DNA from: Bdellovibrio sp.
GTDB lineage: Bacteria > Bdellovibrionota > Bdellovibrionia > Bdellovibrionales > Bdellovibrionaceae
Length of the DNA stretch: 18,430 nucleotides
Assembly (NCBI GenBank): GCA_019104905.1
Contig: JAHRXB010000018.1
Span: 1 to 18,430 of the forward strand
Reading direction: 5' to 3'
The notes under the pieces are model-generated. The model saw only the letters and a program-made list of their open reading frames with translations. It had not been told where the DNA came from and did no database searches. The translations under genes and the position numbers were made by a program. Below, one piece after another: positions 5,019 through 16,849 of the stretch (its first letter is position 1; each line of letters begins with the position of its first letter).

Positions 5019-5041
5019 AGCGTCATAGAAAAGTGGCTTAT

Positions 5042-6229
5042 ATGAACAGAATATTTTTATCTCTTATTTTACTATTAGTTGTCGGCCAAGCCTGGGCTCG
5101 TCCCGAGTATGCAGCTCGTCTTGGTATTAATAACTGTCAGTCTTGTCATTACAACCCCGGCGGTGGCGGCTTACGAAATCCCAATGGAAAGTTCTATGGC
5201 TGGAGAGCTCGTCAGGGTGTGTGGGATGGCGAAAAGAAATACTGGCATATCGATTTGCGCATGAACGGTCTTTATCCTAACAGAGCGACCGAGGCCAATA
5301 ACGGTATGGCTCTGATGAGTGCCGTGGCCGGAGCAAGTCTTCCAATTGAAAAGGACGGCGATAAAGTTCGTTCACAAATCGTTTTAGCTTACGACATGGG
5401 AACGGTCGCTGCCAATGGTCCTCGTGAGGCGTATCTGCAATTCATTCCCGATGAGACCAGTGTGTGGACGATCGGTCGTTTCTTGGCGCCGTTTGGACTT
5501 CTGACTGACGAACATCGTGCGTTCACTCGTTTACAGACTAAGTCGACGATCTATGACTTTGAAATGGGCGGAGCTTATTCGAAGGATCTTTCTGAGCGGG
5601 CTCACATCGACTTCGCTTTAACGACAGGATTTGCTCAAGGGGGTAAATTCACTGGCGGAACTCCGACGACTCCTGAACAGACAAGTGCTGCGATTCTTAA
5701 TGCTCGCTTCAGTCCGTCTTTTTATCCCGGCTTCTTAGGGTTGAGCTATCGCAACGATCAATCTTTGATTGTCAAAGATGTTCAAGCGGTGAGCGCTTAC
5801 AGTGCGATTTCGCTCGAGAGAACTCGCTTGTTCATCCCGCTACATGTGTTGGGTGAAGTGGTGTGGGCACAAGGGTGGAACAATCAAAAGTATAATGCCA
5901 TCAATATGGGTCAGTTCATTCCTGGTTCTGATTTGGCTTTGCAGGCGGCCCTTGAAAAAAGTGAGTCTTTGGGAATGGGTGCGGAAGCCAATTTTGAAAT
6001 CAACCCTTGGTGGGTTTTGCAATATAGATATGATCGTATAGCTTTAGATCAGAAGTTTTCTGGGGATGTGTTTCAGCGCCATGGCGTGGGCTTTAAACAT
6101 TTTTTCACAGCAACTACGAATATCCTAGTTCGCTATGAAAAGGCGGAGTCTTCTGTTAAAGAAGTACCGCAAGAAAGCGTTAGAGCAAATAAAGACAGTT
6201 TCTATTTTATCCTTCACGCGTGGTTATAG
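5042..6229 (+). CDS. Outer-membrane beta-barrel fused to an N-terminal c-type haem domain (Cyc2-like layout)
   Basis: A 395-residue exported protein. The signal peptide ends AWA (cleavage after residue 19). Directly after it comes a short haem domain: PEYAARLGINNCQSCH with the haem motif CQSCH at 32-36, then a Gly-rich stretch NPGGGGLRNPNGKFYGW. The remaining roughly 330 residues look like a porin, with alternating aromatic strands, short turns, a GRFLAPFGL segment and an aromatic-rich final strand FYFILHAWL. This order (signal, monohaem domain, barrel) is that of fused cytochrome-porins such as Cyc2, which carry electrons across the outer membrane during iron oxidation. The Gly-rich segment differs from the Cyc2 consensus, so it may belong to a related, uncharacterised haem-barrel family. 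The ATG at 5042 is preferred because it begins the signal peptide with a charged residue; a GTG at 5033 is in frame. The Shine-Dalgarno is weak (AAGTGG). The diheme lipoprotein gene follows 12 bases later. Confidence 0.8.
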   Translation: MNRIFLSLILLLVVGQAWARPEYAARLGINNCQSCHYNPGGGGLRNPNGKFYGWRARQGVWDGEKKYWHIDLRMNGLYPNRATEANNGMALMSAVAGASLPIEKDGDKVRSQIVLAYDMGTVAANGPREAYLQFIPDETSVWTIGRFLAPFGLLTDEHRAFTRLQTKSTIYDFEMGGAYSKDLSERAHIDFALTTGFAQGGKFTGGTPTTPEQTSAAILNARFSPSFYPGFLGLSYRNDQSLIVKDVQAVSAYSAISLERTRLFIPLHVLGEVVWAQGWNNQKYNAINMGQFIPGSDLALQAALEKSESLGMGAEANFEINPWWVLQYRYDRIALDQKFSGDVFQRHGVGFKHFFTATTNILVRYEKAESSVKEVPQESVRANKDSFYFILHAWL

Positions 6230-6241
6230 AAAGGCTTGTGT

Positions 6242-6967
6242 ATGAAAAAGCTTTTACTTCTTCTCCCTATGTTGGTTTTGGTTTCTTGCGGCGACAAGCA
6301 TATGGTTGTTGATCGCACAAAAGTAAGTGCGGGTGCGAACACTCAGGCCGGTGCCGGTGATGCCGCTGTGACATATGCTCGAGACATCAAACCTATTTTT
6401 CAACGTGTTTGTTCCGCTTGTCACAATGAGGGCTCTGCAATTCCTAACTGGAATAGCTATGAAGTGAGTTTTGCCAAAAAAGATCGTCTTTTAGATCGCG
6501 TCGTTATTAAAAGAGACATGCCGTTGGGTATGCCTATGACGGATGACGAACGCGCTTTGGTGGCAGAGTGGTTGAAGCTCGGTGCGCCCGAAGGCGGTGG
6601 AGTGGTGAGCAATCCTCCTACTCAAGTGGCAAAACCGGAACAGCCATCGGCACCAGCTCCAGAGACTCCATCCGAGCCCGCTCCCGCTCCGGCGCCACAA
6701 CAGCCGCCGACTTCTTCTGAGGGCGAAATTTTGACTTATGCGAAAGTTAAAACAGCCGTTTTTGATCAATACTGTGCTCTTTGTCACAACGAGAATTCGG
6801 GTGATCTTATGCCCAACTGGGGAGCGTTCTCTATCGTGAGCGGCCGCAAAGACAAGATCTACACTCGTGTTGTGTTGGAAAAAACAATGCCTCCACAAGG
6901 AATGCCTTTCAGCGAGGAAGCTCGTGATATGTTGAAAAAGTGGATTGATGATGGAGCCGTAGAGTAG
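6242..6967 (+). CDS. Two-haem c-type cytochrome lipoprotein with duplicated domain
   Basis: A 241-residue lipoprotein. The lipobox is LVSC, with the lipidated Cys at 16. Two homologous haem domains follow. Domain 1 covers about 44-117, with IFQRVCSACHNE (haem motif 57-61) and candidate Met ligands in RDMPLGMP (Met93 or Met97). Domain 2 covers about 165-239, with VFDQYCALCHNE (178-182) and KTMPPQGMP (Met216 or Met221). The domains share PNW, a KD(R/K) segment, RVV and a C-terminal acidic/Leu helix, so they arose by duplication. They are joined by a Pro/Ala/Gln linker (about 121-160). The layout resembles the PSCyt1-like haem domain found in many periplasmic or surface proteins. The gene lies 12 bases after the haem-barrel gene and was probably transcribed with it, so it may exchange electrons with the barrel. 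An in-frame TTG at 6236 is less likely than the ATG at 6242, which has AAGG upstream. Confidence 0.88.
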   Translation: MKKLLLLLPMLVLVSCGDKHMVVDRTKVSAGANTQAGAGDAAVTYARDIKPIFQRVCSACHNEGSAIPNWNSYEVSFAKKDRLLDRVVIKRDMPLGMPMTDDERALVAEWLKLGAPEGGGVVSNPPTQVAKPEQPSAPAPETPSEPAPAPAPQQPPTSSEGEILTYAKVKTAVFDQYCALCHNENSGDLMPNWGAFSIVSGRKDKIYTRVVLEKTMPPQGMPFSEEARDMLKKWIDDGAVE

Positions 6968-10252: not shown

Positions 10253-11008
10253 ATGAGTATGATCAGCCTGAAAGACATCACAGTCGCCTTTGAGAATCAC
10301 GTGGTTCTGAAGAACATCAACTTGGACATTGCACCTGGGGAATGTTTCGTTATTGTGGGCCCCAGTGGGCAGGGAAAAACAACCTTGCTTAAAACCATGT
10401 CGGGCCTTGTAACCCCTCAAAATGGCAAAGTTTTTATTGAACAGCAGGACTGGCTAACGCTAAGCAATAAGCAGCGTCTTCCGCTCTTAAAAAAGATGGG
10501 AATTTTGTTCCAAAAAAATGCCCTATTTGACTCTCTGACTTGTGTCGAAAATATCTGCTTTCCGTTGCGTGAAACAACAAAGTTAACGGATTGGGAAATA
10601 ACAAAAAGAGCTGAACTCTATTTAGATGCCGTGGGAATTCCACATGCTCGTGATTTGTATCCTGACGAAATCAGCGGGGGGATGCAAAAGCGCTTGGGTA
10701 TTGCTAGAGCCCTGGCTCTAGATCCAGAGATTATTTTTTACGATGATCCAACCGCGGGGTTGGATCCGATCACCTCCAAAAAGATTATCGAGTTGATTTT
10801 AAAACTCAAAAAAGAAAAAGGCTCCACTGTTGTGGCTATCACGAATGATATGAATCGCGCTTATCAGATGGCTGACAGAATCGGAGTGGTTATTGATCAA
10901 CAAGTGTTGATCACCGGAACTCCCGAGCAAACCAAGCAGTACTCTGATCCCCGAGTGCATCAATTTGTAAGAGGTCTCTTGCAGGGACCTCTTACCACGA
11001 TGGCCTAG
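10253..11008 (+). CDS. Mla-type ABC transporter ATPase 1, with degenerate catalytic residues
   Basis: A 251-residue ABC ATPase of the MlaF family. It has Walker A GPSGQGKTT (36-44), Q-loop Gln87, signature SGGMQ (141-145), Walker B IIFYDDP (160-166) and D-loop AGLDP. The C-terminus DPRVHQFVRGLLQGP resembles the MlaF tail. Two catalytic positions are altered: the Walker B glutamate is Asp165, and the H-loop histidine is Asn198 in AITNDM. Both were checked codon by codon. In known ABC pairs such changes mark a non-catalytic site. It is predicted to pair with ATPase 2 (11513-12244) and drive lipid movement between the membranes. The ATG at 10253 is followed by a second in-frame ATG at 10259. The gene is separated from the rest of the transporter by a convergent VOC gene and ends 3 bases from it. 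Confidence 0.9.
   Translation: MSMISLKDITVAFENHVVLKNINLDIAPGECFVIVGPSGQGKTTLLKTMSGLVTPQNGKVFIEQQDWLTLSNKQRLPLLKKMGILFQKNALFDSLTCVENICFPLRETTKLTDWEITKRAELYLDAVGIPHARDLYPDEISGGMQKRLGIARALALDPEIIFYDDPTAGLDPITSKKIIELILKLKKEKGSTVVAITNDMNRAYQMADRIGVVIDQQVLITGTPEQTKQYSDPRVHQFVRGLLQGPLTTMA
10967..10995. other. Perfect 10-bp inverted repeat in the ATPase 1 3' end
   Basis: GTAAGAGGTC (10967-10976) and GACCTCTTAC (10986-10995) form a perfect stem with a 9-base loop, inside the last codons of ATPase 1 and just before the convergent VOC gene stop. No T run follows on either strand. It may reduce read-through between the two convergent genes, whose stops are 3 bases apart. Confidence 0.6.
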
Positions 11009-11011
11009 CGA

Positions 11012-11389
11012 TTAGTTCATAGCATGAAGGGCAAGGCGATTTCCCTCGGTATCTTCAAAGTGAGCAACAAAACCATACTGACCGATGCTGGTTTTTTTAT
11101 TCAGGGTCTTTCCTCCGTTTTGTTCGATTTTTAGAAGGGCTCCATCAATATCACTGACGGAAAAGTAAATCGTGGTACCTGCATGTGAAGGTTGATAGCC
11201 GGCACTTTCAACCAAAGACCCAGTCGTGCCGGGAGCTTTGTCGATCCAAGGAAACCATGCCATTTTCATGGAACCCATCTCGTTGAGAGTCATGGAAAAA
11301 TTGAATGCGCCCTCGTAAAACTTTTTTGCGCGCATGATATCTTTTGCGGGAATTTCAAACCAAACAACGGGATTCGTATTGTTAGCCAT
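11012..11389 (-). CDS. VOC (glyoxalase/bleomycin-resistance) superfamily protein
   Basis: A 125-residue single VOC domain pair with the usual beta-alpha-beta-beta-beta pattern. It begins VVWFEIPAKDIMRAKKFYEGAF (two shorter pieces: VVWFEIPAKD and RAKKFYEGAF), and the second half has TIYFSVSDIDGALLKIEQNGG and ends HFEDTEGNRLALH, with a candidate metal-ligand Glu near residue 115. It resembles uncharacterised glyoxalase-like enzymes rather than GloA. The substrate is unknown. The ATG at 11389 has a strong GGAGG Shine-Dalgarno; a longer in-frame reading from 11458 has none. It lies on the opposite strand within the Mla locus, which looks like an insertion between the two ATPase genes. Confidence 0.85.
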   Translation of the reverse strand: MANNTNPVVWFEIPAKDIMRAKKFYEGAFNFSMTLNEMGSMKMAWFPWIDKAPGTTGSLVESAGYQPSHAGTTIYFSVSDIDGALLKIEQNGGKTLNKKTSIGQYGFVAHFEDTEGNRLALHAMN

Positions 11390-11476
11390 TGTGCCTCCTC
11401 TATTTCTTGATCTTGAGATAGGGGGCAGGGAACAACAAGAGGCCCTGGAATATTGCAAAGGTCACGCTTTTGTCGG

Positions 11477-11506
11477 TTGACCCAGTACAACGGCGCCCTC
11501 TAAAAT
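11477..11506 (+). promoter_or_regulatory. Promoter of the ATPase 2-permease-MCE operon
   Basis: TTGACC (11477-11482) and TAAAAT (11501-11506) are spaced by 18 bases, and each matches consensus at five of six positions. The start point would fall near 11513, which is the GTG start codon of ATPase 2. It gives the second part of the transporter locus its own promoter. Confidence 0.6.
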
Positions 11507-11512
11507 TGTTGA

Positions 11513-12244
11513 GTGATAGAATTTAAAAACTTCGTTAAGAGATTTGGTTCAAGAACAGTACTCAGCGGATTGAGTCTTAAGATTCGCGAAGGTGAAATCA
11601 TATTCATTCTGGGGACATCTGGGACAGGAAAGTCCGTTCTTTTGAAAAATCTGGTGGGCCTTCTCACGCCCGATGAGGGAGAGATCTGGATTGATGACGA
11701 AGAGGTTTCTAAGTTTTCTGAAGAGCAATATCTTCCAATTCGCAAAAAATGCGGAATGGTCTTTCAACATCCGGCTCTTTTTGACTCTTTGACGGTTTTT
11801 GAAAATGTCGCCTTTGGCCTGCGCCGCCACTATCAACTGGAAGAAAAAGTAATCCGTGAAAAAGTCGAGAAAGCTTTGCGCTTAGTGCATCTTGCGGGCA
11901 TCGAAAATAAACGCCCCGGGCAGATTTCTTATGGAATGCAAAAGCGGGTGAGTTTGGCTCGGACTGTAGCCTTGGAGCCTCGGATCTTGTTGTTTGACGA
12001 GCCCACAACAGGGTTAGATCCTGTAACTACAACCGCCGTGAACCAATTGATTTTAGATCTTTCTCGAGAGCTCAAGACCACCTCGCTGGTGGTCAGTCAT
12101 GACATGAACTGCGCGCTGTCGATTGCAGATCGCATTGTGGTTTTGGATAAAGGACAGATTGTGGCGCAAGGGACTCCTGATGAACTGAAGCGCTCGGAAC
12201 ACCCTTTGGTGAAAGACTTTCTTTCTGAGGTTCTTAGCGCATGA
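11513..12244 (+). CDS. mlaF: Mla-type ABC transporter ATPase 2
   Basis: A 243-residue ABC ATPase with intact Walker A GTSGTGKS (34-41), Gln85, Walker B LLFDEP with Glu163, and H-loop His196 in VVSHDM. Its signature is SYGMQ (139-143) where most members have SGGxQ, so Tyr140 replaces the first glycine. This signature would complete the ATP site formed by ATPase 1, whose own catalytic Glu and His are also lost. The start is GTG at 11513, since an in-frame TGA lies directly before it and there is no downstream Met before Walker A. No Shine-Dalgarno is visible. The stop overlaps the permease 1 ATG (ATGA). It is predicted to be the catalytically active half of a heterodimer at the inner membrane. 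Confidence 0.92.
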   Translation: MIEFKNFVKRFGSRTVLSGLSLKIREGEIIFILGTSGTGKSVLLKNLVGLLTPDEGEIWIDDEEVSKFSEEQYLPIRKKCGMVFQHPALFDSLTVFENVAFGLRRHYQLEEKVIREKVEKALRLVHLAGIENKRPGQISYGMQKRVSLARTVALEPRILLFDEPTTGLDPVTTTAVNQLILDLSRELKTTSLVVSHDMNCALSIADRIVVLDKGQIVAQGTPDELKRSEHPLVKDFLSEVLSA

Positions 12245-13020
12245 CCTTTGTAGTATCTCTTTTTGATGAAATCGGTGGTGCGCTTCTGTTCTTGCAAAAA
12301 ATTTTGCGCACATTCTTCTATAAAAAAGTAAAAACCCACGATGTCTTTGAGCAAATTTGGAAAGTCACTTACGACAGCTTCTTTACCACCGCCATGGCGG
12401 GTTTTTTTGTGGGCGCCATCATGACGGTTCAGTTTGCATTGCAAATGAAAGAGTTCGGAGCCTTGGGATATCTAGGAGGCCTGGCGACCAGTGGAACCTT
12501 TCGCGAAGTGGGGCCTCTTTTGATTGCCTTTATGTTGAGTGGAAAGGTGGGAGCCTATACGTCTGCGGAGCTTGGAACCATGAAAGTCACTGAGCAGATT
12601 GATGCCGTTCGCTGTTTAGGGGCGGATCCCATTCAAGAGATCATTTTACCGCGCTTCATAGGAATTATTGTCTCTAGCTTTTTTCTTTTGGGCGGCGGCC
12701 TGATTATGTCGGTTTTCGGTGGAATGTTGATGGGTCAAGCCTTTGCTGGAGTCAATTTTGAAGAATATCTTCGTCATGTTCCCATGATTGTCAGCCCTGT
12801 TTCCATCTTAAGTGGACTGATTAAGTGCGGAGCATTCGCCTTAGTTTTGGCGACCGTTTGTACGTATAAAGGTTATACCACCACGGGCGGAGCCAAAGGC
12901 GTCGGAAGATCCGTTGTCGCCACAGCGGTTTCCACGATGGTTTGCATTGTGATTATGGACTGGTTTACAAGCCATATTGGAGAAGTCATTTTGATTATGG
13001 TGAGGGGATATCGCTCATGA
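12241..13020 (+). CDS. mlaE: MlaE-type permease 1
   Basis: A 259-residue polytopic inner-membrane protein of the MlaE/TGD1/YrbE family. It has an amphipathic N-terminal helix, several membrane helices and the family motif ELGTMKVTEQIDAV (110-123), which couples the permease to the ATPase. It also shows a TTGGAKGVGRSV segment near the C-terminus. Its ATG at 12241 overlaps the ATPase 2 stop, and its stop overlaps the permease 2 ATG, so all three are translationally coupled. With permease 2 it should form the heterodimeric membrane core of a lipid transporter. Confidence 0.92.
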   Translation: MTFVVSLFDEIGGALLFLQKILRTFFYKKVKTHDVFEQIWKVTYDSFFTTAMAGFFVGAIMTVQFALQMKEFGALGYLGGLATSGTFREVGPLLIAFMLSGKVGAYTSAELGTMKVTEQIDAVRCLGADPIQEIILPRFIGIIVSSFFLLGGGLIMSVFGGMLMGQAFAGVNFEEYLRHVPMIVSPVSILSGLIKCGAFALVLATVCTYKGYTTTGGAKGVGRSVVATAVSTMVCIVIMDWFTSHIGEVILIMVRGYRS

Positions 13021-13736
13021 TCACACTTCTTTCTGAAACGATTGCTGGCCTTTTTATTCCTCCATTTAGGCAAAAAGAATTTGTTCATCAGCTCTACTTT
13101 GTGGCCAATAGAAGTCTTTTGATCATTGTTTTTTGTGTTTGTTTTGCGGCGGTGGTCACAATTCTTGAGTCTTCATTTCACATGAAGATGGTCATTCAAA
13201 ATGACTCGATGGTGCCGGGTTTCGCGGCCCTTTTGATTCTTCGTGAGCTGGGTGCTTTGGTGACGGCTCTTTTGTTGAGCTCCCGAGTCGGTGCTGGTTA
13301 TGCCTCGGAAGTGGGGTCCATGCAAATCACTGAGCAAGTCGACGCCCTTCGCATGCTCGGGATTGATCCCGTGAACTATTTGGTGGTGCCCAGATTTCTA
13401 GCCTGTGTGGTGGGCGGGATGATTCTGACTGTCATCGCCAATATGGCTTGTATATTTTCGGCCATGATTGTGAGCCAATCCTATCTTGGATACACCCCCT
13501 CGATGTTTCTGACTTCCATGCATCGATTTGTGCAGTTTAAAGATATTATTTTTGCGACCATCAAGGGTGCGAGTTTCGGTGGTGTGATTCCACTGGTCGC
13601 ATGTTATTTTGGCTTTCGATGCCAACAAGGGGCCGAAGGCGTAGGCCGAGCCACCACGAATACGGTGGTCGTGGCTTCGATCGCAATTATTGTGATTGAT
13701 TTTATTTTGTCCTATACTTTTAGTTATCTTTATTAG
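13017..13736 (+). CDS. MlaE-type permease 2
   Basis: A 239-residue MlaE-family permease, distinct in sequence from permease 1 but with the same motif EVGSMQITEQVDAL (98-111) and a matching GAEGVGRATTNTVV near the C-terminus. The ATG at 13017 overlaps the permease 1 TGA and has a GAGGGG Shine-Dalgarno; an in-frame extension upstream to 12942 has neither. Two unequal permeases next to two unequal ATPases point to a heterodimeric transporter instead of the homodimeric MlaE2MlaF2 of E. coli. The MCE gene begins 8 bases after it. Confidence 0.92.
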   Translation: MITLLSETIAGLFIPPFRQKEFVHQLYFVANRSLLIIVFCVCFAAVVTILESSFHMKMVIQNDSMVPGFAALLILRELGALVTALLLSSRVGAGYASEVGSMQITEQVDALRMLGIDPVNYLVVPRFLACVVGGMILTVIANMACIFSAMIVSQSYLGYTPSMFLTSMHRFVQFKDIIFATIKGASFGGVIPLVACYFGFRCQQGAEGVGRATTNTVVVASIAIIVIDFILSYTFSYLY

Positions 13737-13744
13737 GAGAACGT

Positions 13745-14521
13745 ATGAAGGTTGAAACCAAGGTGGGTTTGCTGGCGCTTGTCTCGATCGCGTTGATTGC
13801 GGTTTTTGCCTATTTCATGGGTTTCATTTCTCCCTTCTCTAGCGCCAAAGAGCTTCATGTGATGTACAACTACGCCGGTGGCATCGAAGAAGGCTCGCCT
13901 GTGCGAGTCATGGGTATCAAGGTGGGTAAGGTTAAATCCATCACTTTTGATCCCAGCTACAAAATGGCGGATGGTGAAGAGGTCAAACTGCGCTTGACGA
14001 TCACTATTGATAAGAAGGCCTGGACCAGCGTCCGGAAGGATTCAAAGTTTTTCATCAACCTTGCGGGTGTGATTGGGGAAAAGTTTCTGGAAATCTCTCC
14101 AGGCACAAGTGCTGCGGGTGAATTTTCTTCAGGAGACTATGTTCGTGGCGAGGATCCGCCTCGAATTGATCAGTTAATTTCTCAGGGATACGGTTTGGCC
14201 GGGAAAATCATTGAGTTGGTTGAGAAAAATGAAGGTTCAGTGACCAACACTATTCAACAGTTAGATCGTTTGATGACGAACTTCAATAAAACCTTGGTTC
14301 TATTGGATAAAACGACCAAGAATAAGGAAGTTGCGAGACTGCTTGATAATGCGGTCAAAATCAGCGATGACGTGGCATACATGACAAACAACTTGAGATC
14401 TAAGAAAGCGGAAGAGACTTATGATCTTGTTCATAAGCTCCTTTTTAGATTGGAGCCGCTGGATGGTCCCGCCATTCGAAAGTTTCTTCAGCAAGAAGGC
14501 GTTAAGGCCCGCATTTTTTAG
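13745..14521 (+). CDS. mlaD: MlaD-type MCE-domain protein
   Basis: A 258-residue protein with one N-terminal transmembrane helix (about 8-26), an MCE domain (about 36-136) and a helical C-terminal extension. The MCE domain shows SPVRVMGIKVGKV (51-63), the hydrophobic-core segment LAGVIGEKFLEISPG and a C-terminal edge YVRGEDPP. In E. coli MlaD six such subunits form a periplasmic ring through which phospholipid passes. Here the protein is longer than E. coli MlaD because of about 120 residues of amphipathic helix after the MCE domain, which may lengthen the channel toward the outer membrane. A good AGGAGA Shine-Dalgarno precedes the ATG. It is transcribed with the permeases. Confidence 0.93.
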   Translation: MKVETKVGLLALVSIALIAVFAYFMGFISPFSSAKELHVMYNYAGGIEEGSPVRVMGIKVGKVKSITFDPSYKMADGEEVKLRLTITIDKKAWTSVRKDSKFFINLAGVIGEKFLEISPGTSAAGEFSSGDYVRGEDPPRIDQLISQGYGLAGKIIELVEKNEGSVTNTIQQLDRLMTNFNKTLVLLDKTTKNKEVARLLDNAVKISDDVAYMTNNLRSKKAEETYDLVHKLLFRLEPLDGPAIRKFLQQEGVKARIF

Positions 14522-14542: not shown

Positions 14543-15310
14543 ATGTTTAAACTTTCAGTCTGTTCTATGGGAGCAGCTTTTTTCTTGGGTTTGAGTTTGG
14601 CTCAAGGAGCCTCTTTAGGTTTAGGGTCTGACCCCAAAACAATTAAGGCAAAATCTTCTTCGATTGAATCCGAGTACAGCCGCAATATGCGGGCTGAAAA
14701 ACAAGGGGAAGAAGTTAAATCAGCGGCCCCCAAAGTGACGGTGCCTGCGGTTCGACCCGGCTCTGTGGCGGCCGAAATTCGCTCGATTCCTGGGGCAACA
14801 AACACCTACTACTCCCAAAACAGCTTCTCTTATTCTTCGACATTGAAGATGCGTGAGGACCGAAAGGTAGGGGCGGGTCTTTCTGTTGGAGGAACTTTGG
14901 GGCTTGCCGGCTTTAATATGGAGCTTAACTTTGAAGATGCTGACGGAGTTATCGCCGGATTTGGAACGGGCCCCGGATATAATTCGGTTCAGTTGGCTTG
15001 GAAGCATGCATTTGAGGGGGACTATCTGGCCCCTTACGCATCTGTGGGGTATTCGCGCTGGTACAATTCGCGCGGCAGTTCGAATAATTATGGGTCTTCG
15101 GACATTTTGGATCGGGTTCTGACATCCAACGAAAAGAAAACGGGTCAATTTGGAACAGATTTTGTGAATACGTCCTTGGGGCTTCAATATAATCAGCTCA
15201 CCGGGGATCTTGCGGGGCTTTCATTCTTTGGGGAGTTGACGGCGATGTGGGAAGTAAAACGCTCTATGTTGCTTCCGAACGGGTCTATCGGAGCTATTTA
15301 CTATTTCTAA
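14543..15310 (+). CDS. Predicted outer-membrane beta-barrel protein linked to the Mla operon
   Basis: A 255-residue exported protein with a signal peptide ending near residue 23 (AQGA). A polar, Pro/Ala-rich linker covers about 25-85, followed by a beta-rich region from about 88 to the end. Strands such as NSFSYSSTLKM, KVGAGLSVGGTLGL, NSVQLAWKHAF and APYASVGYSRWY alternate polar and hydrophobic residues. The C-terminal strand ends YYF, the usual BamA-recognition pattern. It looks like an eight-stranded-type small barrel with a periplasmic N-terminal linker. The GGGAGG Shine-Dalgarno is strong, and the gene begins 21 bases after mlaD, so it belongs to the same operon. It may be the outer-membrane partner of the transporter, in place of MlaA, which is not present. 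That role is inferred from position only. Confidence 0.75.
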   Translation: MFKLSVCSMGAAFFLGLSLAQGASLGLGSDPKTIKAKSSSIESEYSRNMRAEKQGEEVKSAAPKVTVPAVRPGSVAAEIRSIPGATNTYYSQNSFSYSSTLKMREDRKVGAGLSVGGTLGLAGFNMELNFEDADGVIAGFGTGPGYNSVQLAWKHAFEGDYLAPYASVGYSRWYNSRGSSNNYGSSDILDRVLTSNEKKTGQFGTDFVNTSLGLQYNQLTGDLAGLSFFGELTAMWEVKRSMLLPNGSIGAIYYF

Positions 15311-15539: not shown

Positions 15540-15686
15540 GTGCTCCTCCTAGGATGCAAACGTTGTTGTTGTTTCTCTAACTTAAAAACTTAACTTACCT
15601 TAAGTCTTCACAATTCGACCAGCGACGTCAACAAAAAATTTACCTTGCATATTTTTTGCGAGTCTTTGGGTGCTTGGAGGTGCCCT

Positions 15687-16424
15687 TTGCTTATCGTTTT
15701 ATCGATTTCGCTGCTCGGACATGCGCTCGTTCATCGAATTCTTTCGTCGATGGCGCATGAATTTGCTTTCTCTCAACACTGGGTTCGGGCTTTTTCGATC
15801 TCGAACCTGGTTGTGATCTGCTTTTTCACCGCAAGCAGTGGCTCATCCATCACACTCTGGCTTTTCATCGGCATTCTTTTAATAACTTTAAAGTTTTTTC
15901 CGACGATTTTGCGTTTTTTCTTAATAAAACGTCTGCGCGGAGCCCTCGTTCCACTTCTTGATTGCGTGATCTTGGGGGTTCAATCAGGAAAATCTTTCCG
16001 CATATCGCTTCATGAGGCCATCGAAATTCAAAGCGGATGGGTGCGCCGACAGTTGTTGGAGTTGTTTGAATCTTTGTCGATGTCGGAAAATGTCATCGCC
16101 ATGAAATCCGCTCTGCTCAAGGATTTCCAGCAAGAGATTATGGAGATCGATCGTTCGCAAAGTCGCTGTTTAGAACAGGTTCGCGCTTTGCGAAGGACGT
16201 TGAAGATGCAGGAAAATTTTCGACGTAGGTCTGGACAGGTCACTCAGCAGATTAAGATGCAGGCGATAATTGTCACCGCTCTTTTTTTGGGACTGCTGTC
16301 TTTTGTAATTATGCAATTTGGATTTAAAAGCCACCAATATCTGATCTTTTTGTCCTTCATCTTCTTTTTTGCGGGGCTCGTTTGGATATTTTCGGTGGGT
16401 CGGAGGATTAAATGGAAGGTTTAG
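15687..16424 (+). CDS. TadB-like (GspF/T2SSF-type) inner-membrane protein
   Basis: A 245-residue membrane protein with helices near residues 2-20, 38-58 and 58-80, a cytoplasmic helical segment (about 83-190) and two C-terminal helices (about 191-213 and 219-236). The cytoplasmic segment, starting LVPLLDCVILGVQSGKSFRI, follows the pattern of the Tad/type II secretion F domain, which forms the platform for a pilus or secretion ATPase. I chose the TTG at 15687 because GGAGG (15676-15680) lies six bases before it; an in-frame TTG at 15645 has no Shine-Dalgarno. The 3' end overlaps the next gene by 13 bases. No TadA ATPase, secretin or pilin is in this window, so it is an orphan pair with the next gene. 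Similarity is by pattern and moderate. Confidence 0.65.
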   Translation: MLIVLSISLLGHALVHRILSSMAHEFAFSQHWVRAFSISNLVVICFFTASSGSSITLWLFIGILLITLKFFPTILRFFLIKRLRGALVPLLDCVILGVQSGKSFRISLHEAIEIQSGWVRRQLLELFESLSMSENVIAMKSALLKDFQQEIMEIDRSQSRCLEQVRALRRTLKMQENFRRRSGQVTQQIKMQAIIVTALFLGLLSFVIMQFGFKSHQYLIFLSFIFFFAGLVWIFSVGRRIKWKV

Positions 16425-16849
16425 CACCACCGCTCGCGCTTCTTCTTTGCGTCAAACGCGCTATTGAGAAGGGACAATCGGTCAAACAAGGAGTTTTAAT
16501 CTATATCAAAAAGGAACGGGGCGAATTCGTCACCGTCGTGACGCTCTGGCTGGGGCTTTTGCAGCAGGGGCAAGATCCACGAGAAGCCGTTCAAAAGCTT
16601 TCCTCACCCCATCGTCGTACTTTATTGCAAGTTTTGGAACGGGGGCTTCGCGGCGAGTCCATTCATACCGTTCTTGTGCGTTTGGAGGAAGAATTGGTGG
16701 AGGCTTGTAACGAGGAATTAACAAATAAAATAGCGCAGTTGCCGTTTATAATGCTTATTCCCCTCTTATTATTTCAGTTTCCTGCCTTTTTACTGCTCCT
16801 TTTTGGACCTCTTCTGCAAAATTTTTTTCACTCTTTGGGAGGGGGGTGA
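16412..16849 (+). CDS. TadC-like short GspF-type membrane protein
   Basis: A 145-residue protein. The first half has the GspF/TadC layout (a helical cytoplasmic domain with EKGQSVKQGVL, LGLLQQGQDPREAVQKLS and a Leu/Arg-rich helix), and the end has one or two membrane helices (about 108-135, LPFIMLIPLLLFQFPAFLLL). It is about half the length of usual TadC proteins, so it may be a truncated or minimal form. The ATG at 16412 overlaps the end of the preceding gene, and a GGAGG Shine-Dalgarno precedes it. The overlap suggests co-translation of the two proteins and a shared complex. Function beyond this is not shown. Confidence 0.6.
   Translation: MEGLAPPLALLLCVKRAIEKGQSVKQGVLIYIKKERGEFVTVVTLWLGLLQQGQDPREAVQKLSSPHRRTLLQVLERGLRGESIHTVLVRLEEELVEACNEELTNKIAQLPFIMLIPLLLFQFPAFLLLLFGPLLQNFFHSLGGG

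Follow-up and report, generated by a model that had tools for sequence, protein, structure and literature searches.

Why would one transporter operon carry two different ATPases, neither of which has a complete set of catalytic motifs? The question is raised by an 18,430-nucleotide stretch of Bdellovibrio sp. DNA (the window; contig JAHRXB010000018.1 of assembly GCA_019104905.1), which encodes two MlaF-like ATP-binding cassette (ABC) ATPases, A1 and A2. An initial annotation, made from the letters of the window, had described an Mla-type transporter with three motif changes meeting on one dead composite ATP site. Our comparative analysis points to an asymmetric MCE-family lipid ABC transporter of the MlaEFD-core kind, in which an A1-A2 heterodimer would have one hydrolysing and one idle site. 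Judged from the sequences compared, the probability of this reading is about 0.83. The source genome is fragmented (317 contigs, 88% complete), and protein homology searches returned Bdellovibrio as the closest named homologues of A1 and A2. The two ATPase genes are as follows.

10253..11008, + strand: A1 (ATPase 1), MlaF-like ABC ATPase of 251 amino acids with an ABC_tran match; catalytic-position Asp at 10745-10747, H-loop Asn at 10844-10846, intact signature ISGGMQKR at 10670-10693.
11513..12244, + strand: A2 (ATPase 2), MlaF-like ABC ATPase of 243 amino acids with an ABC_tran match; degenerate signature ISYGMQKR with Tyr at 11930-11932, intact Glu at 11999-12001 and intact His at 12098-12100.

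The codons were as the initial annotation had read them. The Walker B segment of A1 is IIFYDD-P, with Asp (GAT) at the position of the MlaF Glu, and its H-loop is VAITND-M, with Asn (AAT). A2 has an intact Walker B motif (FDEP; Glu, GAG) and H-loop (VVSHDM; His, CAT), and its signature carries Tyr (TAT). In alignments to solved MlaF chains (best 7d06 and 6z5u), the Asp fell on the catalytic Glu, the Asn on the H-loop His, and the Tyr on the first signature Gly, which bears out the earlier assignment. The corresponding E. coli MlaF signature is 145-LSGGM-149 (PMC7367683). By our own reckoning, three random lesions distributed over two subunits would share one composite site with a chance of 1 in 4. 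A single genome therefore proves little, and the weight rests on conservation. For the same reason, luck as an explanation was put to a conservation test.

We searched for homologues of both proteins and inspected the best 120 of 6585 matches for A1, a list that holds the window's own protein, and the best 120 of 7989 for A2. The catalytic Asp and the H-loop Asn were each present in 120/120 A1 homologues; SYG, Glu, and His were each present in 120/120 A2 homologues. The identical states rule out a pseudogene or a sequencing error as the source of the lesions. In a phylum survey of 289 evenly drawn genomes (completeness at least 85%), A2 matches (E<=1e-70) were found in 119 and A1 matches (E<=1e-65) in 87. 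We then examined 101 loci including the window, picked mostly by A1 or A2 similarity. Fifteen were set aside (four other loci of the window's own genome, five with A2 only, five with A1 only, and one with a single canonical ATPase), leaving 86 loci with an A1/A2 pair. The window's genus is represented among these by its own genome and three others; its remaining members were read from short loci.

The site formed by the A2 Walker B and H-loop motifs and the A1 signature was canonical throughout: A1 SGG, A2 Glu, and A2 His were each found in 86/86 pairs. The exception to be noted is L143, where the end of A2 is chimeric and resembles another ABC protein near the contig end, so that its Glu and His reading is doubtful. 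At the opposite site, the first signature Gly of A2 was replaced in every pair (80 SYG, 4 SFG, 1 SFA, 1 GFS). The A1 H-loop residue was Asn in 78 pairs, Ser in five, Thr in two, and His in one; the A1 catalytic residue was Asp in 64 and Glu in 22. All 22 Glu-bearing A1s belong to families outside the window's class, where some A1s also have Asp. Within the window's family, 30 additional A1 genes all read SGG/Asp/Asn and 30 additional A2 genes all read SYG/Glu/His (the genomes are partly shared). Thus, apart from the chimeric A2 end, the lesions were limited to one composite site in all 86 pairs and the other site was canonical, as in degenerate-site transporters.

These counts bear on the earlier proposal in different ways. 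It had named, as findings that would speak against it, relatives with Glu or His in A1 or an SGG signature in A2. The former do occur, in 22 and one of the 86 pairs; the latter occurred in none, so the second site is damaged in every pair. Placement of the lesions on one composite site of a heterodimer, together with its conservation, is thus supported by the comparison. The word "dead" was too strong. The Walker A Lys, the Walker B Asp, and the Q-loop Gln are retained in both subunits of 86/86 pairs, so the site is better predicted to bind ATP but not to hydrolyse it quickly.

Loci without an adjacent A1 gave a different picture. A seven-row A2 alignment served as the query against the genome contigs of 524 relatives, and the 80 best loci were taken. 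Several of these had already been fetched, so the 21 loci below and the 86 pairs overlap and are not additive; L188 and L162, which agree in length and motifs, look like one contig counted twice. A1 stood beside A2 in 21 of the best 80, with SGG in A2 in 0/21, His in A1 in 0/21, and Glu in A1 in 5/21. Four of these (L183, L185, L190, and L193) come from assemblies titled Deltaproteobacteria, Lysobacteraceae, or Proteobacteria, and such titles can err. In the 59 loci without an adjacent A1, the ATPase had SGG in 54, and Glu and His in all 59; an MlaE match lay nearby in 50. The five others comprised three STG, one GPG, and one SYG. The SYG locus (L171) belongs to genome G226, in which A1 lies on another contig (L246) and still has Asp and Asn. 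Genome G040 likewise has A1 on a separate contig (L135), with Asp and Asn. In 14 genomes of another genus of the same family (g17), A1 was not found at E<=1e-60, and in two complete genomes of this genus without A1 (L263, L265), MlaE and MCE genes are accompanied by a canonical ATPase.

The remaining genes of the operon, and the gene that interrupts it, are listed here.

11012..11458, - strand: VOC/glyoxalase-family gene (PF00903) between A1 and A2, outside the transporter.
12241..13020, + strand: E1, MlaE permease (PF02405); the E1 rows form one clade.
13017..13736, + strand: E2, MlaE permease (PF02405); the E2 rows form one clade.
13745..14521, + strand: MCE-domain protein (MlaD; PF02470).
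14543..15310, + strand: predicted outer-membrane 8-stranded beta-barrel, from a structure model with an OprF/OmpA-like fold.

The genes are tightly packed. The start codon of E1 overlaps the stop codon of A2 (ATGA), and the likely start of E2 overlaps the stop of E1 in the same way; the open reading frame list begins the E2 frame upstream, at 12942. In 86/86 pairs the two ATPase genes share a strand, and the gap between them is at most 60 bp in 76. Gaps above 400 bp occurred in eight pairs, all in the window's family, and the VOC gene insertion therefore looks local. Two MlaE matches were present in 82 of the 86 pair-bearing loci. The MCE protein has a C-terminal extension with a conserved FLQQEGVKARIF-type tail at its end (alignment with 15 relatives). 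The model of the barrel protein had a mean predicted local distance difference test score (pLDDT) of 73.9, with blocks of 73-94 in the barrel part, and its nearest solved folds were the barrel domains of OprF and OmpA. The gene is found 3' of the MCE gene in many relatives. The barrel may be a partner of the transporter and, given that MlaA was not found, could provide the pathway's outer-membrane end.

This layout bears on how the ATPases pair. A1 and A2 might each form a homodimer for a transporter of its own, with partly impaired sites in both. The foreign gene between them in the window and the two genomes with A1 on another contig would fit such an arrangement, as would the homodimeric nucleotide-binding domains described for MlaFEDB (PMC7367683) and Mce1 (PMC9882608). 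However, neither homodimer would hold a complete site in any of the 86 pairs, the shared strand and short gaps tie the two genes together, two distinct permeases share the operon, and the A1s on other contigs retain their lesions. We consider separate homodimers very unlikely. A homodimer of A1 or of A2 would carry lesions in both of its sites, and the heterodimer alone has one intact site; with the paired permeases and the lesions kept where A1 lies elsewhere, this makes the heterodimer the best explanation. An A1-A2 heterodimer with all lesions on one composite site is strongly supported by these comparisons.

To follow the history of the subunits, we built quick trees. Each subunit formed one clade: IQ-TREE placed A1 and A2 each on one side of a branch (Shimodaira-Hasegawa-like approximate likelihood ratio test, 94 and 98), and the E1 and E2 clades had local supports of 0.997 and 0.994. 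Parsimony on a tree of 94 pairs required four changes at the A1 catalytic position, five at the A1 H-loop, and nine at the A2 signature; the residues of the intact site were identical across the rows. The mean p-distance was 0.505 for A1 versus 0.409 for A2, so that A1 evolves faster. In one assembled genome, A2 and E1 are naturally fused in a single open reading frame (L111:5639-7348, + strand). This single fusion hints that A2 sits on E1.

A similar operon was found in Myxococcota. Five genomes were chosen there as carriers of a twin-cassette protein described below; they belong to the same phylum as genome G297 (the L227 genome, titled Polyangia bacterium). A tandem MlaE pair and two ATPases were present in 5/5, and an MCE-gene match nearby in 4/5 (L340-L344). 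In 5/5, one ATPase (mA) combines SGG with Asp and an intact His, and the other (mB) combines FGDGM with Glu and His. On these motifs, the mA/mB lesions would hit the same composite site via partly different residues. FastTree joined E1 and E2 with their Myxococcota counterparts at supports of 0.981 and 0.848, A2 with mB at 0.908 (with one canonical row within), and A1 with mA at 0.694.

The faster evolution of A1, and the differences in its Glu and His among relatives, could mean that A1 is decaying or regulatory and that an A2 homodimer alone drives transport, tolerating its Tyr signature. This is highly improbable. A1 retains its SGG signature and nucleotide-binding residues in 86/86 pairs, and pure decay would not spare the very motif that the A2 site needs while A2 loses its own. 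The recurrence of the pattern in Myxococcota speaks against decay as well.

The twin-cassette proteins came from a joined A1+A2 query. Among the best 120 of 429 matches, 113 were newly listed (P0241-P0353), and 107 of these carried two MlaF-like cassettes in one chain. In these listed matches, the first domain had SGG in 106/107, the first Gly of the second domain was replaced in 104/107, and Glu and His were intact in both domains in 107/107. Matches at E<=1e-90 occurred in 42/235 genomes of G297's phylum. The domains of 18 twin-cassette proteins formed a separate clade in a tree (support 0.999), so the signature lesion seems to have arisen twice. A place for the twin cassette in an MCE operon was considered and rejected, as 20/20 fetched neighbourhoods had no MlaE or MCE match. 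A structure model reached a mean pLDDT of 83.8 and a predicted template modelling (TM) score of only 0.61. It resembled mycobacterial OppD and DppD chains, which also carry two cassettes (TM score 0.65-0.73, by query length), a likeness that does not in itself prove the packing. Three neighbourhoods were scanned with Pfam: penicillin-binding-transpeptidase and RodA/FtsW-family genes accompany the twin-cassette genes L308:7703-9334 and L313:7524-9212, L308 adds MreB and MreC, and L321 has adenosine deaminase.

With the heterodimer as the preferred arrangement, a mechanism can be proposed. The complex would combine single copies of A1, A2, E1, and E2 with an MCE-protein ring; A1 and A2 would pair head-to-tail on an E1-E2 permease heterodimer. 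The site built from the Walker A, Walker B, and H-loop motifs of A2 and the signature of A1 would hydrolyse ATP. The site built from the same motifs of A1 and the signature of A2 would hold ATP, with slow or no hydrolysis, and serve as a hinge, so that about one ATP may be used per cycle. By likeness to the degenerate-site exporters reviewed in PMC7756269, the degenerate site probably retains its ATP. A lipid cargo is expected from the protein families.

It may also be that the heterodimer assembles as proposed, yet both sites hydrolyse at useful rates and the asymmetry merely tunes the kinetics. A1 keeps Glu in 22/86 pairs, and Asp is a conservative change. The same site lacks the H-loop His in 85/86 and the signature Gly in 86/86, however, and in E. 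coli the MlaF Glu170Gln change alone fails to complement (PMC7367683). Two usefully active sites thus seem rather unlikely.

Several points weigh against one hydrolysing and one idle site in an A1-A2 heterodimer. Some ATPases can still hydrolyse ATP slowly with Asp at the catalytic position, and the retention of Glu in 22/86 A1s and of His in one implies that the impairment varies in degree. The case for the heterodimer is built from sequence comparison, and choosing loci by A1 or A2 similarity favours the pattern observed, which makes for a biased sample of MCE operons. The mirror-tree correlation between A1 and A2 was 0.80, compared with 0.82 for A2-E1 and 0.91 for E1-E2. Being not above the former and below the latter, this value does not mark A1-A2 as the contacting pair, and with all four subunits correlating at 0.70-0.91 the test is uninformative. 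The trees are quick ones. Besides the 0.694 support for A1 with mA, the support for E2-only rows dropped to 0.104 once Myxococcota were added.

A broader reading can be formulated. The operons may represent an asymmetric MCE/MlaEFD branch with both permeases and both motors diverged, of single origin and common to Bdellovibrionota, Myxococcota, and some other lineages. They would spend one ATP per cycle, the second site being permanently idle, and its signature lesion would have re-arisen independently in the fused twin cassette of Myxococcota. We see the odds on this as evenly balanced. If true, powering lipid movement across diderm envelopes asymmetrically would be a design that recurs.

Related ATPases occur elsewhere in the window's own genome. 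A second MCE operon on contig C163 (MlaE, ATPase, MCE protein) includes an ATPase (L067:575-1285, - strand) with an unrecognisable signature (VPGRVRKL), Asp for Glu, and neither the H-loop His nor the Q-loop Gln. This signature-less ATPase is 81-89% identical in 8/8 other Bdellovibrio genomes searched, and in one of the quick trees the MlaE of its operon groups among the paired permeases. Genome G045 of genus g17 holds a weak relative of this ATPase (L264; 28% identity) whose Walker A motif is unrecognisable; its short locus has no MlaE match. Contig C240 carries an orphan A1 paralogue (L069:3504-4262, + strand; 52% identical) with Asp for Glu and the His kept. It has no MlaE match nearby, the next genes resemble a phosphonate importer by eye, and paralogues of this type are present in 4/24 genomes of the genus (E<=1e-60).

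In the window, 5033-6967 holds two neighbouring genes with CxxCH haem-binding motifs, of which the second matches a cytochrome c Pfam family and the first matches none. Two small genes lie at 15645-16849; the second resembles the type II secretion system F domain, slightly below the Pfam cut-off.

How does the operon compare with known systems? The Mla core is present, as an MlaE permease, an MlaF-like ATPase, and an MlaD MCE protein occur together (PF02405 twice, PF02470, ABC_tran twice). The Mla-specific NCBIfam models scored below their cut-offs: 196.5 and 205.9 versus 441 bits for MlaF, and 62.3 versus 135 for MlaD. MlaC (PF05494) and MlaA (PF04333) were each found in 0/7 genomes, with positive controls in E. 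coli and Caulobacter. No MlaB STAS match was found among the nine window proteins scanned; no genome-wide search was made. The "Mla-type" label of the initial annotation thus holds for the MlaE, MlaF, and MlaD homologues and fails for MlaA and MlaC, so that we assign the system to MCE transporters built on the MlaEFD core and not to the E. coli Mla pathway.

Like E. coli MlaFEDB, a type VIII ABC transporter, the operon encodes an MlaE permease, an MlaF-type ATPase with an LSGGM-like signature, and an MCE protein. The E. coli complex is MlaF2E2D6B2, in which MlaF pairs with itself and the same MlaE is present twice (PMC7367683, PMC7790496). Here, there are two different ATPase genes and two different permease genes, in separate clades, in place of a single one of each. 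Mycobacterial Mce1 has two different YrbE-type permeases, the YrbE1A/YrbE1B heterodimer (PMC10517005, PMC9882608); E1 and E2, in separate clades, likewise differ from each other. Its ATPase MceG is homodimeric and its MCE proteins are six different ones (PMC9882608), unlike the one MCE gene and two differing ATPases of this operon. The operon resembles the Veillonella MlaEFD core (PMC10665443) more than the E. coli pathway. This minimal system is described as doing without MlaA, MlaC, and MlaB. It has one MlaE, one MlaF, and a barrel within MlaD, unlike the separate barrel gene that follows the MCE gene here.

The Myxococcota twin cassette (P0261 and its relatives) shares with A1/A2 two MlaF-like domains, SGG in the first and a first-Gly lesion in the second. 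It differs in being one polypeptide with Glu and His intact in both domains, in forming its own clade, and in having no MlaE or MCE neighbour in 20 loci. The CFTR signature change is presumably at the same Gly as that of A2. As in the degenerate-site ABC exporters (PMC7756269; TM287/288), lesions of the Walker B Glu, the H-loop, and the opposite signature fall on one composite site; unlike these exporters and the channel, which have no MCE protein, the transporter described here is MCE-linked.

In the literature searched, from which subscription journals were mostly absent, we found no MCE-family system described as having a heterodimeric pair of ATPases with a degenerate site, and within that reach the suggestion that the system was undescribed holds. 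A term search of the main text of a Bdellovibrio transposon sequencing paper (PMC6561027) gave no match. In symmetric MCE/Mla systems the sites are indistinguishable, so ATP cost, motor alternation, and lipid direction are hard to settle. Here, both sites and both permeases are naturally labelled, and each can be disabled singly. The A1/A2 system is present in Bdellovibrio bacteriovorus strain kdesi (L168), a predator species amenable to laboratory culture. ABC transporters with a degenerate site are already described; what is new here is a widely conserved asymmetry of this kind in an MCE-family transporter with both subunit pairs diverged, which would extend degenerate-site biology to the MCE family.

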